Assembly: GCA_025056255.1 (NCBI GenBank) | Contig: JANWVT010000008.1 | Coordinates: forward strand, 62,001 to 126,000 | Direction: 5' to 3' | Length of the DNA: 64,000 nucleotides | Origin: Bernardetiaceae bacterium | Lineage (GTDB): Bacteria > Bacteroidota > Bacteroidia > Cytophagales > Thermoflexibacteraceae | Part shown: one piece after another, positions 5,113 through 40,753 of the stretch | Position numbering within the stretch: the first letter of the stretch is position 1 | Layout of the letters: each line of letters opens with the position of its first letter | Made by a program: the position numbers and the translations under genes | Notes under the pieces: model-generated | The model's input: the letters and a program-made list of their open reading frames with translations, nothing else | Database searches by the model: none | What the model was told of the DNA's origin: nothing

Positions 5113-5131
5113 TTGGATGTATTGCATCCAA
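5113..5131. other. Short perfect inverted repeat after nadD
   Basis: TTGGATG and CATCCAA flank a 5-base loop in the short spacer after nadD. No T-tract follows, so it is not a standard intrinsic terminator. It overlaps an alternative upstream ATG (5117) of the next gene, one reason to prefer the ATG at 5138. Confidence 0.4.
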
Positions 5132-5137
5132 TCGTAC

Positions 5138-7207
5138 ATGAGAAAGCCTTATTTTTTGCCAATAATGCTGCTTGCTTGTTTGCTACACCTATTGGTAAAA
5201 GGCAAGTCTCGCACTTGGGTACTGGAAGTGGGAGCCTCACAAGTTGATTTAGTACCCTATGCACTGGTTTTAAAAGATAGCTCTGGCAAATTAACCTGGC
5301 AGCAGGTGAAAGCAATGGACTTTGGTCTTCCTGACGAAAGAGGCTTATATTTTCCACATCATAACAATTGCATATATTGGATAAAGCTAACCATTCACAA
5401 CCCGTATCAGGTACCTGTCAACCGTTTTTTGCAGATTCACAATCCAACGATTAATCGAATTGGCTGGTATGTAGTACAAAAAGACAAGCTCTTAGAAGAG
5501 CGCCAAACAGGCGACGCCTTGCCTTTTTATACTCGCCCTGTTCAAAATAATTATTTCATTTTCCCAATTACGCTGCCAGCCAATAGCACAACAGAGTTTT
5601 TTCTGCGGATTGATACGGAAAGTGATGCAGTTAATCTGCCTTTGGTTTTATGGGAGGCGCGTTCGCTTTTGGAAAGCATTCAGCAAGAGCGCTGGATATT
5701 TGGGCTATTCTATGGCATCTTGCTGTTTACCATTGTTTTCCATCTGTTTTTGTTTTACAAACTCAACGACACAACCATTCTTTACTACATTGGCTACGTG
5801 CTGGGCTTAGGCGGATTTATGTTGTGTATGGACGGGCTGGCAGCGCAATATCTGCTTCCCAATCTTCCAGCATTAGCAAACAGTTTGCTGCCGTTTAGTG
5901 CATCGTTTGGCGGGGTTTGTTTAATGATATTTTCACGTAAGTATTTAGGTAGAGAAAACCTCCCTGTTTGGTCGCGTTGGTCGCTGTTGGCAGTTGGGTT
6001 GTTATGTGCGTTGCTGATGCCTTTTTGCTTTGGCTCTAACGAAGTGATTACCTATGCTATTATTGCCGCCTCTGTTATTATTCCCATATGTAGCATAGTT
6101 GCAGTAGTAGCAGGGATAGTAGCCTACCGTACAGACCCCTTGCGGGCAAAATATTTTACTACGGCATTTATTTTTCTGATGGGTGGTGTGGTGCTTATTG
6201 CAATAAAAGGTTTCGGATTAGCCTTAGGACAATGGAATGAACATGGGCTAAAATTAGGCGTTGCTACTGAAGTAGTCATTTTTGCCTTTGCTATTACGGT
6301 GCGCTTCAAGCAAATGGAAGAGCGTACGCAAGCCTTGGCGCTTAGCCATCTGCAGAACCTGAATCGGATGAAAGATGACTACAACCGGAGCTTGCAGGAA
6401 GAGGTAGCGCGTCGCACAGCCGAACTGAGCACTGCTAATCAAAAACTTACTGACAGTATCCGCTATGCCAAGCGATTGCAGCAGGCAGTATTACACAGTC
6501 AAGCAGACCTTCTCCAAATATTCCCCAATAGTGCTGTTTTAGACCTGCCCCGCGATATTGTCAGCGGCGATTTCTTTTGGGTAGAAAACATGGGCAGCAA
6601 GAAAATATTGTCGGTAGTAGATTGTACCGGGCACGGCGCCCACGGCGCATTTATGTCTATTCTGGGTTGCCGATTATTTAATGAAATAGCCGAACAAGTT
6701 GTCACAGAATGCCCTGCTGAGTGGCTTATGCACTTAGACCGCCGCTTTCGCCGCATTTTGCTGGGCGATCAAGACGAAGAACTACATGCTGCCAGTATGG
6801 ATGTTGCGCTACTGGCTTACGACGAGGCTGCATGCGTAGTAGAATATGCAGGGGCACGTCGTCCACTCTATCTGTTTCGCAACGGCATATTGCAAGTGTA
6901 TAAAGGAAGTCCGTTTGCCATAGGCGGTACCCTGTCGAACAAACATAGTTCGCCCTTGTTTCAAAAGCAGCGGATAGAAGTACAACCCGGCGACATACTA
7001 TATCTGTTCAGCGATGGATATGCAGACCAGTTTGGCGGGCAACCAGAGCGCAAACTAACCTTAGAGCGTTTCAGGCAAATACTAACAACGATTCACCGCG
7101 TCGATATCCGTCAGCAAGCAGAGCTATTGAAATACAACTTGACCGAATGGCAACAGACCTTGCCACAAACAGATGATATTTTGGTTATTGCCTTGGCAAT
7201 TTCTTAG
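5138..7207 (+). CDS. 7TM-DISM sensor with SpoIIE-type serine phosphatase domain
   Basis: A membrane signalling protein of 689 residues. It begins with a signal peptide, followed by a periplasmic 7TMR-DISMED2-like domain (about 30-165), seven transmembrane helices (about 185-390), a coiled-coil linker (about 400-450) and a PP2C/SpoIIE phosphatase domain with SGDFFW, DCTGHG and LFSDGYADQFGG metal-binding motifs. Such proteins typically dephosphorylate anti-sigma-factor antagonists or STAS proteins in response to an outside signal. An in-frame ATG at 5117 would add seven residues; 5138 gives a cleaner signal peptide (MRKPYFLPIMLL). The signal and partner are unknown. The stop overlaps the convergent DUF6150 gene by four bases. 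Confidence 0.9.
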   Translation: MRKPYFLPIMLLACLLHLLVKGKSRTWVLEVGASQVDLVPYALVLKDSSGKLTWQQVKAMDFGLPDERGLYFPHHNNCIYWIKLTIHNPYQVPVNRFLQIHNPTINRIGWYVVQKDKLLEERQTGDALPFYTRPVQNNYFIFPITLPANSTTEFFLRIDTESDAVNLPLVLWEARSLLESIQQERWIFGLFYGILLFTIVFHLFLFYKLNDTTILYYIGYVLGLGGFMLCMDGLAAQYLLPNLPALANSLLPFSASFGGVCLMIFSRKYLGRENLPVWSRWSLLAVGLLCALLMPFCFGSNEVITYAIIAASVIIPICSIVAVVAGIVAYRTDPLRAKYFTTAFIFLMGGVVLIAIKGFGLALGQWNEHGLKLGVATEVVIFAFAITVRFKQMEERTQALALSHLQNLNRMKDDYNRSLQEEVARRTAELSTANQKLTDSIRYAKRLQQAVLHSQADLLQIFPNSAVLDLPRDIVSGDFFWVENMGSKKILSVVDCTGHGAHGAFMSILGCRLFNEIAEQVVTECPAEWLMHLDRRFRRILLGDQDEELHAASMDVALLAYDEAACVVEYAGARRPLYLFRNGILQVYKGSPFAIGGTLSNKHSSPLFQKQRIEVQPGDILYLFSDGYADQFGGQPERKLTLERFRQILTTIHRVDIRQQAELLKYNLTEWQQTLPQTDDILVIALAIS

Positions 7208-8888: not shown

Positions 8889-9055
8889 AGTTTGTTATTT
8901 TTCTAAACGGGGTAAAGATACCCGCTGTATGCTTATCAGTGTAGTGCAAGCAACAGATTTAGCATCAAATTAATGTAGCGCCAACCATCAAGATTTATAA
9001 TAAGGAGTTTTGTTTAAAAAAATTAGGCAAAATCTTAAACAATTTACAAGCACAA

Positions 9056-9873
9056 ATGATTTATATGAGTGAAAAAACTATTTCAATAAACTATAAAAAT
9101 TTTGTTGCTATGTTTTACTCACCAGTACTACTCGATGCTACTCTCCGTGCTGGAGACTACATCGGTTTCACGTTTTTTACAGGCTACATGTCTATGTTAG
9201 CAGCCTCTATTTTCTTCTCATTGTAGAAAGAGGAACAGTTTCTGAAAAGTGGAAAACCTCTTTGTTGGTTTCTGCTTTAATTACTTTCATTGCAGCGGTT
9301 CACTATTTTTACATGCGCGGCGTATGGCTAGAAACGCAGACTTCACCTACTCAATTCCGTTACATCGACTGGACGCTGACCGTACCGTTGATGTGCATTG
9401 AGTACTATCTGATTCTGAAACCTGCTGGTGCAAAGTCTGGCATGCTGGTGCGTCTGATTGCTGGTTCTTTGCTGATGCTAGTAGCTGGCTACATTGGCGA
9501 GGCGATATATGTAGAGCAAAACGTACTTTGGGGTATTATTTCCACAGTGGGTTGGGCAGTAATTATTTACGAAATTTATGCTGGTGAGGCAGCCAAAGTA
9601 GCAGCAGCAAGCAATAATCCTGTGGTACAACGTGGCTACAACGTACTGCGTTGGTTTACATTGGTAGGTTGGGCGATCTATCCAATTGGCTACATGATGC
9701 TGCCCGGAAACTTGCTACATGGTTTAGTAGAGGGTTATGACCCCACTAAGTCATCCCCTGTAGATTTAGCTTACAACATTGCTGATGCTGTGAACAAGAT
9801 AGGTTTTGGCTTGGTGATTTATACCATTGCTAAAGGTGCCACAGCAGAAGAAAGAGCTTATGCACGCGCGTAA
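9056..9873 (+). pseudogene. proteorhodopsin-type retinal proton pump, split by a one-base frameshift
   Basis: Light-driven proton pump family (microbial rhodopsin). Frame one runs from ATG 9056 (or 9065) through helix A to a stop at 9224-9226; homology continues in another frame from 9223 (VERGTVSEKW) through helices B-G to 9873. Restoring one base near 9221-9223 gives about 272 residues, a normal length. Key residues survive: His in AVHYFYMRG (H75-like), RYIDWTLTVP with the proton acceptor Asp and Thr, Glu five residues after TVPLM (donor), and the retinal Lys in ADAVNKIGFG. Met at the position equivalent to 105 predicts green absorption. No retinal-synthesis gene is in the window. It may be a true lesion or a sequencing error; the uninterrupted downstream frame suggests a recent event or an error. 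Confidence 0.85.
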
Positions 9874-9920
9874 ATTTTCCAAAGAGGCGCAATTTATTTT
9901 AGCAAGTAGTTTAGTTGAGC

Positions 9921-9954
9921 AATAAGCAATCATGGTTAGCCATGGTTGCTTATT
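9921..9954. terminator. Strong hairpin between the rhodopsin gene and the phosphodiester glycosidase gene
   Basis: AATAAGCAATCATGG, a TTAG loop and CCATGGTTGCTTATT form a 15-bp stem with one mismatch, followed on the plus strand by a T-rich stretch. It sits between convergent genes and overlaps the stop codon of the minus-strand gene, so it may work in both directions. Confidence 0.75.
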
Positions 9955-11020
9955 TTCTTATGACAGCTAATATGGAAGCTACTTTTCGCTCGCCATTTTT
10001 ATCTGAGGGGCGATTGATGACCTTGCCTTTTACCACCATAGTGCTAGACCCCCCGCCGTCTAAGTTAATGGCATAGTTTGCCTTTAATCCTAAAAAAATG
10101 GCTGCCAGTTCGGAAAAAGTTACTCCCTCGCTGTAACCACTCTGCCTGCCATCTACAACAAGTAACAGCAGCCTACCTTTACGGTCTAAACCAACTGCTG
10201 TACGAGGGTGAGTGCCTGCAATTTGCGTAAACCATTCTTCTTTATCGGTGATAAAAACAGTTCCTTTCCATATTAACATAGGTCCTCCGCCCATAATTTC
10301 CGATGCTTGCCACTGATAGGGGGTGGTAGGAAAAAATAAAGTAGGCGGATTTTGTTGTAGCGGTTGGGTAGTAAACGGATTAGGCTTGTCGTATGCCCAA
10401 GTAGTACCGGCACTATCGGTAAAAGTCCATGCAAAACGGACTCGCCTACCTGTAAAGCCTACTGCACTGCGCGTGGGGTACAAGGCGCAGCTATTGCCTG
10501 CGCTATCTTTGCGAAAAACAGGCAACAGATGTGGGCTAATCAACTTACCTTGGTGTACCAGTAAACTTACCGAACTGCGACCTTGTTGGGCTGTATCGGG
10601 GCGAAAGGTGAAGTAGCCGCCATTGATTGCCACTAAGCTTTGGTGCAAGTGCGACAGCTCAGAAGTAAGTAGCAATCCTCTGCCTTCTTGGGCGGGAACA
10701 GATGCTATCTGCAAGCGTTTACTTTTCAACTTTATCACAGCCAAGTAGGCAGCTATTTTTTTGCCACTGGGCAAAGTGCCTTCAAACTTGCGGATGCAAA
10801 TGGCTCTTCCTACTTGCAATGAACGATTGAGGCTATCTATGTTTTGCCATGCCAGCCGGTACTGTGCAAGGCTCGGATAGTGAAATGTGCTAACAAGCAT
10901 TAGCCCAGCACTTACAGCTGTTCTATGTTCAATCCCAATGGTTTTAAATGTTGATAGGAACTTTTTTAAGAATAGCATCAATAACATCGCGGCTGGTAAC
11001 GCCTTCTGCCTCAGCTTCAT
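9950..11020 (-). CDS. phosphodiester glycosidase family protein (NAGPA domain)
   Basis: The C-terminal domain matches the NAGPA/DUF2233 fold: AINGGYF near the domain start, EIMGGGPMLI, HPRTAVGLDRKGRLLLLVVDGR and the hallmark NLDGGGSSTM. Characterised relatives cleave GlcNAc-1-phosphodiesters; the bacterial substrate is probably a cell-envelope glycan. The start is uncertain. The ATG at 11020 overlaps the moxR 3' end by 77 bp; an ATG at 10900 (MLVSTFHYPSLAQ) removes the overlap but shortens the signal peptide. The mature protein probably begins after SLAQ, suggesting export. It is the last gene of the ctlX-moxR cluster. Confidence 0.82.
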   Translation of the reverse strand: MKLRQKALPAAMLLMLFLKKFLSTFKTIGIEHRTAVSAGLMLVSTFHYPSLAQYRLAWQNIDSLNRSLQVGRAICIRKFEGTLPSGKKIAAYLAVIKLKSKRLQIASVPAQEGRGLLLTSELSHLHQSLVAINGGYFTFRPDTAQQGRSSVSLLVHQGKLISPHLLPVFRKDSAGNSCALYPTRSAVGFTGRRVRFAWTFTDSAGTTWAYDKPNPFTTQPLQQNPPTLFFPTTPYQWQASEIMGGGPMLIWKGTVFITDKEEWFTQIAGTHPRTAVGLDRKGRLLLLVVDGRQSGYSEGVTFSELAAIFLGLKANYAINLDGGGSSTMVVKGKVINRPSDKNGERKVASILAVIRK

Positions 11021-38880: not shown

Positions 38881-39234
38881 TTAATTGAGTCGTTCTTTCA
38901 AAGCTGCTAAAAAATTGCGCACTTCTTGCAATTCGCGTATCAATTCGGCAATTTGAGTAGGGGAGACCAGTGGCGCAATTGGTTTGTTGTTTTGCAAAGC
39001 CTCTTTGGCACCTTGCAACGTATAGCCCTGTATTTTTACTAAGTGGTAGATTTTTTGAATATTTTCAATTTCTGCCTTTGTATATTGGCGGACGCCATTA
39101 CGCGTTTTCCGAGGGCGGATGCTTTCAAATTGTGTTTCCCAAAAGCGGATTTTGGAGGGAGCAATACCAAACATCTGTGCTACTTCACCAATGCTATAGT
39201 ACCGCTTTTCTATTTCATCAGATTTGTTCTTCAT
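38881..39234 (-). CDS. MerR family transcriptional regulator
   Basis: A 117-residue regulator with an N-terminal winged-helix DNA-binding domain: RYYSIGEVAQMFGIAPSKIRFWE is the helix-turn-helix and ARNGVRQY-type wing appears as KTRNGVRQYTKAEIENI. The C-terminus is a coiled coil that mediates dimerisation, with no cysteines for metal sensing. This form (short, no effector domain) is widespread in Bacteroidota. The ATG at 39234 is preferred over a TTG at 39255. It sits immediately upstream of metG and is divergent from the TPR gene. Confidence 0.87.
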   Translation of the reverse strand: MKNKSDEIEKRYYSIGEVAQMFGIAPSKIRFWETQFESIRPRKTRNGVRQYTKAEIENIQKIYHLVKIQGYTLQGAKEALQNNKPIAPLVSPTQIAELIRELQEVRNFLAALKERLN

Positions 39235-39271
39235 GGGAAAGCACAGTTTTTGCAAACTGTTATAGGTAATT

Positions 39272-40753
39272 ATGAGGATAAAGGTACAGTTTTTTGCGCG
39301 AAGTATTCAAGTAATGCTTTCCTTTTTTTGCCTATTGGCATCATTATCAGCTATTTCCCGCCTTTTTGCTCTACCTGTTCAGCCATATTTCAGATTTGAA
39401 ACAACCGAGCAACAGGCTTACTGGCAACTGCTTAATATGCGCTTTGCCAATGCACGGGTGGCTATACAACAAATTCCCGAACAGAACCTCATTCGAATTT
39501 ATCTGGAAAATTGGGCAGATGTACTGGAAATGATAGGCAATCAGGATGAGGGATTGTACCTTTCTAAGCTATCTCTTCGCGAAGAAAGGCTAAGGCGCCT
39601 TCAACAAGGCAATCCTCAGTCGCCCTATCACCTTTTTTTGCAAGCTGAGGTTCGGCTGCAGTGGGCATTAGCGCAAGTAGTTTTTGATGAACCTTTGGCA
39701 GCGGCATGGAATATACGAAAAGCTTTTCACTTATTACAAGCCAACAGCCAGCTCTATCCTGAGTTTGAGGGCAACCATAAGTCGTTGGGCATTCTCCAAG
39801 TGTTGTTTGGGGCAGTACCTGCACAATATGAATGGCTATTGTCGCTTTGGGGACTTTCAGGTAGTACAGCAAAAGGATTTGCAATGCTGACCAACGTAGC
39901 AACGGGTAACTCTGTGTATGCGCCCGAAGCTCAGCTATGGCTGGTGTTGTTAAAAAGTCAGTTGGAAAGTACCCCTATACTGCAAGTCAGCAATAGCCCG
40001 CATCAGCCGGGAAAGTGGTTACTGGCAACTGCTTACAGAAAAATTGGCAATAGCAGCATGGCTTTGCGCTTATTGCAAGATTTACCCACAGATGCACCTT
40101 CATTGCTCTGTTGGGAAAAAGCAACAGCATTATTGAATAGCGGTCATTATCGGGAGGCGCTCCAATGGCTCGAGTTGTTTGAAAACAAACACAAGGGCGC
40201 AGATTTGCTAAAAGATGCACAGCTGAAACGATTTTGGTGTTATTGGCTACAAAACTGCAACGAAGAAGCTATGGTTGCTCTGCAAAAAGTAACACGAGCA
40301 GGGCGTACCCGAACAGAGGCAGACAAGCACGCCGCTTACTGGGCAGCCCTCCGCCCTTTGCCCGACCGAAGATTGCTCCAAGCACGTCTACTAACCGACG
40401 GGGGCTACGTTGAAAGTGCAGGGGAAGTATTGCAAGCAATTAATCCTCAAACCCTTTCGCTACCCGATTTGTGTGAATATTACTATCGCTTGGCTCGCAA
40501 TGCACATCGGGCTGGCAATTGGTCGCAAGCAATTGCCTATTACGAAACATGCCTTGTTAAAGCCAGAGGGGCAGCTTTTTATTTTCTTCCCAGTGCTGCT
40601 TTGCAGGCAGGTATCATCAGTAAGCACTATCAAAAAGACCTCTCCAAAGCACGTTACTATTTGCATCGTGCATTAGAATATCGGCAGCATCCTTACAAAA
40701 AGAGCATTGACCGAAAAGCCAAAGAAATACTAACGACACTGTCCAAACAGTAA
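39272..40753 (+). CDS. TPR-containing exported protein, Iml2/TTC39-like
   Basis: A 493-residue protein with an N-terminal hydrophobic segment (VMLSFFCLLASLSAISRLFAL) that is a signal peptide or anchor. The rest is helical repeats: tetratricopeptide-like pairs such as NARVAIQQIPEQNLIRIYL, HYREALQWLELFE and NWSQAIAYYETCL. The segment with GNHKSLGILQVLFGAVPAQY and LSGSTAKGFAML recalls the Iml2/TTC39 (DUF3808) family. TPR proteins bind peptides or assemble complexes; the partner is unknown. Confidence 0.75.
   Translation: MRIKVQFFARSIQVMLSFFCLLASLSAISRLFALPVQPYFRFETTEQQAYWQLLNMRFANARVAIQQIPEQNLIRIYLENWADVLEMIGNQDEGLYLSKLSLREERLRRLQQGNPQSPYHLFLQAEVRLQWALAQVVFDEPLAAAWNIRKAFHLLQANSQLYPEFEGNHKSLGILQVLFGAVPAQYEWLLSLWGLSGSTAKGFAMLTNVATGNSVYAPEAQLWLVLLKSQLESTPILQVSNSPHQPGKWLLATAYRKIGNSSMALRLLQDLPTDAPSLLCWEKATALLNSGHYREALQWLELFENKHKGADLLKDAQLKRFWCYWLQNCNEEAMVALQKVTRAGRTRTEADKHAAYWAALRPLPDRRLLQARLLTDGGYVESAGEVLQAINPQTLSLPDLCEYYYRLARNAHRAGNWSQAIAYYETCLVKARGAAFYFLPSAALQAGIISKHYQKDLSKARYYLHRALEYRQHPYKKSIDRKAKEILTTLSKQ

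Follow-up and report, generated by a model that had tools for sequence, protein, structure and literature searches.

The window, the whole 64,000-nucleotide stretch of DNA analysed here, carries on its plus strand one proteorhodopsin gene that is split over two reading frames, as seen from its open reading frames and their translations. At the junction the window holds two bases more than five relatives of the same family, in which the gene is intact; the genome has no second copy, and its branch shows no excess of amino-acid change. We consider it probable, at roughly 0.58, that this is a recent real mutation of the genome's sole proteorhodopsin gene through a two-base expansion of a TTC/TC repeat, probably by slippage. 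Replication slippage would have added the two bases at the end of helix A, translation from the ATG at 9110 would then stop after 38 residues, so that the seven-helix pump is not made, and the break would be so young that the remainder of the gene still looks strongly constrained by purifying selection. On this reading the break would lie in the organism rather than in the assembly and no functional protein would be expected. Overall, we see a small disabling lesion, whether a very young one or a slip of the assembly, and in both cases an ordinary event.

Structure of the split gene

The 5' part of the gene (9110 to 9226, plus strand) was delimited by translation and by alignment with the five relatives. 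It opens with the ATG at 9110, reaches the end of helix A at codon 36 and, after two more codons, closes with the TAG at 9224 to 9226. The 3' part (9220 to 9873, plus strand) lies in the other frame and comprises the A-B loop and helices B to G up to the stop at 9871 to 9873. No single open frame holds the seven helices, as the TAG follows helix A and the remainder is in another frame. The initial annotation had read both the change of frame and the TAG at 9224 correctly, as the translations confirm, and had placed the break in helix A/B; in the protein it falls at the end of helix A. The interval of that annotation opened at 9056, which is an ATG. The start codon kept in the five relatives is the ATG at 9110, and when the segment 9056 to 9109 is aligned to the DNA that precedes the gene in the two nearest sisters, gaps of 4 and 6 bases open up. 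Because this segment has indels that are not multiples of three the start at 9056 was rejected, and 9056 to 9109 does not behave as coding sequence. It belongs to a longer upstream region (8940 to 9109, plus strand) in which aligned blocks are common to the two nearest sisters. A promoter scan gave no assignable promoter for the gene (2.6 sigma-70-like sites were expected and one was seen, which lay on the other strand) and a terminator scan around it gave nothing useful.

The 3' part is not a chance open frame, since it matches PF01036 at 1.6e-35, with 123 bits where the cut-off is 24.6, and its best match among solved proteorhodopsins, 9jov, reaches 6.6e-57. The 38 residues of the 5' part by themselves matched no Pfam family. 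Alignment to green proteorhodopsin (2l6x, 8cnk) showed helix B to retain its H, helix C its D, T and E, and helix G its K, which, together with the relatives, bears out the initial annotation in finding the residues of a proton pump downstream and helix A upstream. We take the D and T to be the acceptor and the E the donor in helix C, and the K to be the retinal-binding residue. In the alignment to solved proteorhodopsins the window protein has M at the position usually discussed for colour tuning. The 3' part is 94% identical to those of the sisters G002 and G003 over 203 residues. When PF01036 was searched in the whole 3.39-Mb genome, the window gene was the one match and no second rhodopsin copy was found.

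A NAGPA-type phosphodiester glycosidase gene follows the rhodopsin gene on the opposite strand (both within window 9110 to 11020) and also adjoins the rhodopsin gene in G002. The gene on the other side of the rhodopsin gene in G002 matches the window about 30 kb away (38923 to 40747), so the neighbourhood is partly rearranged between the two genomes. Elsewhere in the window, a 7TMR-DISM membrane receptor with a SpoIIE-type phosphatase domain is encoded at 5117 to 7207.

The lesion and its distribution

The two extra bases were located by DNA alignment of the window with loci L003 to L007, and they lie inside a TTC/TC repeat at 9212 to 9219 (plus strand). The relatives compared were G003 and G002 (same genus, with the 94% identical 3' parts), G001 (same genus), and G008 and G011 (neighbouring genus). 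Which two bases are the added ones is ambiguous because the repeat permits several alignments. The initial annotation had described a single-base frameshift near 9221 to 9223, and the alignment with the five relatives rules out such a lesion; a reader who did not have the relatives could not tell one base from two because both are equal modulo 3.

Beyond these five relatives, none of which has the extra bases, the comparison covered 103 rhodopsin loci, which reduced to 93 distinct ones. One of the source searches contributed the best 80 of 238 matches; it used peptides of the 3' part, so a broken 5' part in another locus would have been retained. The gene is intact through the junction in 87 of the 93 distinct loci, in which helix A, a methionine ahead of it and the remainder share one frame down to a terminal stop. 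The other six are the window, two loci cut by contig ends (L012, L095) and three rhodopsins of other types (L021 to L023) with open frames of 289 to 312 codons. The junction is broken solely in the window among the 93. Its gene resembles a pseudogene made by a small insertion in that the frame is broken, by two extra bases relative to the five relatives and against the 87 intact loci. The 30 bases beside the lesion had no match in IMG/VR, and the titles and abstract openings found in literature searches on broken or split rhodopsins and on blh-less hosts hold no report of this broken gene.

Selection and age of the break

Over 208 codons of the 3' part, the window and G002 differ with a pN of 0.041 and a pS of 0.737, the latter near saturation of synonymous sites. 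With L005 as the outgroup, the window branch received 26 synonymous and 7 non-synonymous changes in the 3' part and the sister stem 34 and 8; in the 36 codons of the 5' part the corresponding counts were 2 and 0 on the window branch and 3 and 1 on the sister stem. The dN to L005 was 0.093 for the window and 0.102 for G002. No relaxation of selection after the break was seen on the window branch, which has no excess of amino-acid change, and this would fit a very young break as well as no break at all. As the changes are overwhelmingly synonymous, these counts support the view that the break, if real, would be very young, in agreement with the initial annotation, which had reasoned that intact selection on the remainder would mean a very recent loss. 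A rough Poisson bound, with an assumed branch dS of 1.0 to 1.5 and 0 to 8 baseline changes, puts the neutral share of the window branch at about 0.8 to 2.8% at most, a figure good to an order of magnitude only given the saturated synonymous sites.

Mutation or assembly error

A sequencing or assembly error, with the gene of the organism intact and an ordinary proteorhodopsin made, is quite possible, although we lean away from it. The remainder of the gene bears no sign of decay and the break is known from one assembly alone, both of which would suit an artefact. To gauge the assembly we looked at how often its frames break. When the ORFs of G002 of at least 100 aa were compared with 787 kb of the window's own genome, 202 were testable, their best segment being at least 50% identical with 75% covered, and three fell in two frames. 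These were the rhodopsin gene, a gene whose T run is longer by one T, and a case discarded as an ORF-calling artefact because the sister ORF runs antisense through the neighbouring gene. Of the 89 testable ORFs of G003 three were in two frames; one was the rhodopsin gene and the other two were dropped after inspection as artefacts of the same kind. In the reverse direction, none of 206 ORFs of the window's genome was in two frames on G002 and one of 86 was on G003. Comparisons of sister against sister gave 8/303 and 11/289 two-frame cases as raw, uninspected counts. Since true frame breaks affect just 2 of the 202 testable G002 proteins, the assembly is fairly clean, and this rarity counts against an error at the rhodopsin gene. 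Changes of two bases within a dinucleotide repeat point more typically to slippage than to base-calling error, and among sequencing errors two-base changes outside homopolymers are not the most frequent kind.

The gene with the extra T lies on contig C30 near 205803 (L253) and encodes a protein of about 185 aa, with one T more in its T run than in G002. This one-base frame break in the same assembly speaks for an artefact also at the rhodopsin gene, in that the assembly may hold some errors. Further points weigh against a recent mutation: the species is represented by one genome; a gene so well conserved, and perfect but for the break, is also what an artefact would leave; and the rough age bound leaves a small span of time in which to catch the break. 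The initial annotation had offered recent loss and sequencing error as its alternatives. It chose the right pair.

Alternatives with a functional protein

It is very unlikely that the gene encodes a naturally split rhodopsin, in which a helix A peptide from the ATG at 9110 and a chain of helices B to G from a TTG at 9262 to 9264 (plus strand), or from a rarer start, assemble into a pump; the chances are equally slight for a version of it in a lineage that gets its retinal through an unknown enzyme or takes it from neighbours. The break does come where helix A ends, between transmembrane helices, and the TTG, the earliest common start codon of the downstream frame, stands 35 bases past the stop. 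Since bacteriorhodopsin was reconstituted from two proteolytic fragments, according to the title of a 1981 work cited in PMC9995646, such a pump is not impossible, though nothing found here points to one. The TTG is a leucine codon that is also TTG in three of the five relatives (L004, L006, L007), and neither a new start nor any other adaptation is present. A chain begun there would start too late to include the loop and the first residues ahead of helix B, and no split occurs in any of the 87 intact loci.

Recoding, in which slippage by -1 during translation or transcription would join the frames and yield some full-length protein, is the least probable of the readings, because the TTTTTTA run at 9173 to 9179, although placed upstream of the lesion, does not have the phase of a canonical -1 site, a shift there would swap out the second half of helix A, and an evolved signal is not expected where the relatives need no shift. 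That run is the sole string of the X XXY YYZ kind in 9110 to 9264, so no slippery heptamer is in phase, and in that sense the initial annotation was right to report none.

Retinal supply

The initial annotation had suggested that retinal-synthesis genes (blh, crtY) would inform on the loss of phototrophy. The search was made and proved uninformative, as Blh was undetected in 7/7 rhodopsin-bearing genomes of the window's family and the window's own genome does encode a CrtY-type lycopene cyclase. The conclusion on Blh rests on a PF15461 search that included positive genomes. Matches above the cut-off were found in 5/5 rhodopsin-bearing genomes from other families of the order and in 0/11 genomes of the family, seven of them rhodopsin-bearing; weak matches below the cut-off occurred within the family in G005 and G006 (E of 0.013 and 0.014). 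A profile built from four Blh sequences of order members matched strongly in five genomes outside the family, four of which had supplied the alignment rows, leaving only G025 as independent. Of the seven rhodopsin-bearing genomes of the family, two gave nothing with it and five gave weak partial matches, none with an E better than 0.0016. These weak matches correspond to one ORF of 452 to 483 codons that is also found in G020 beside the true Blh, and in the window's own genome there was one further weak match (E of 0.37).

The seven rhodopsin-bearing family genomes that have no detectable Blh (G000 to G003, G008, G009 and G011; loci L002 to L007 and L012) include five with complete intact rhodopsins, one with a rhodopsin cut by a contig end and the window's own. 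One named relative that combines an intact gene with no detectable Blh is Thermoflexibacter ruber. The lack of a detectable Blh therefore says nothing about the lesion, because it is common to the intact relatives, and as a test of lost phototrophy Blh is not diagnostic. To speak of lost phototrophy at all presumes that the Blh-less sisters are phototrophic.

Besides the CrtY-type cyclase, the window's genome has a phytoene synthase homologue, and it gave no match to the PF18916 lycopene cyclase. On its contig C52 (L156:1333-3621) it also encodes a divergent protein of the RPE65/carotenoid-oxygenase kind, 763 aa or more in length as the edge of the locus bounds it, with relatives in G002, G008, G011, G006 and G025. 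No RPE65-type PF03055 protein was found in G001 and G003, and as both have intact rhodopsins this protein was dropped as the decider of the retinal question.

Comparison with known systems

If the break is real, the first step of rhodopsin loss would have been caught in a lineage that otherwise conserves rhodopsin strongly, and the strain would be a natural knockout for comparison with the sister species. A by-product of the analysis is a family in which rhodopsin occurs with no detectable Blh. With Blh undetected in all seven of the rhodopsin-bearing family genomes searched, counts of retinal genes need not reveal the use of rhodopsin.

This condition has parallels. PMC7734400 describes Aurantimicrobium minutum as making retinal by an unknown route without blh and names Bacteroidetes among the phyla with such members, and PMC5459899 adds rhodopsin-bearing bacteria without blh from hot-spring mats. 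As in the relatives studied here, an intact rhodopsin is accompanied there by no detectable Blh; in those organisms, however, the rhodopsins are unbroken, whereas the window copy is broken. The loss of proteorhodopsin in Bacteroidetes is itself already known, since in PMC5932025 it was inferred for Flavobacteriia from missing genes, with blh gone too. There, likewise, one Bacteroidetes lineage is without proteorhodopsin while its relatives keep it, but the window gene is still present with a small lesion, and Blh is undetected in its intact relatives as well. Compared with proteorhodopsin proper (PF01036; the green 2l6x and 8cnk, and 9jov), the window gene is alike in the sequence of helices B to G and in its D-T-E residues, lysine and histidine, and it differs in that helix A is severed by the frame break, so that as assembled it encodes no whole pump.
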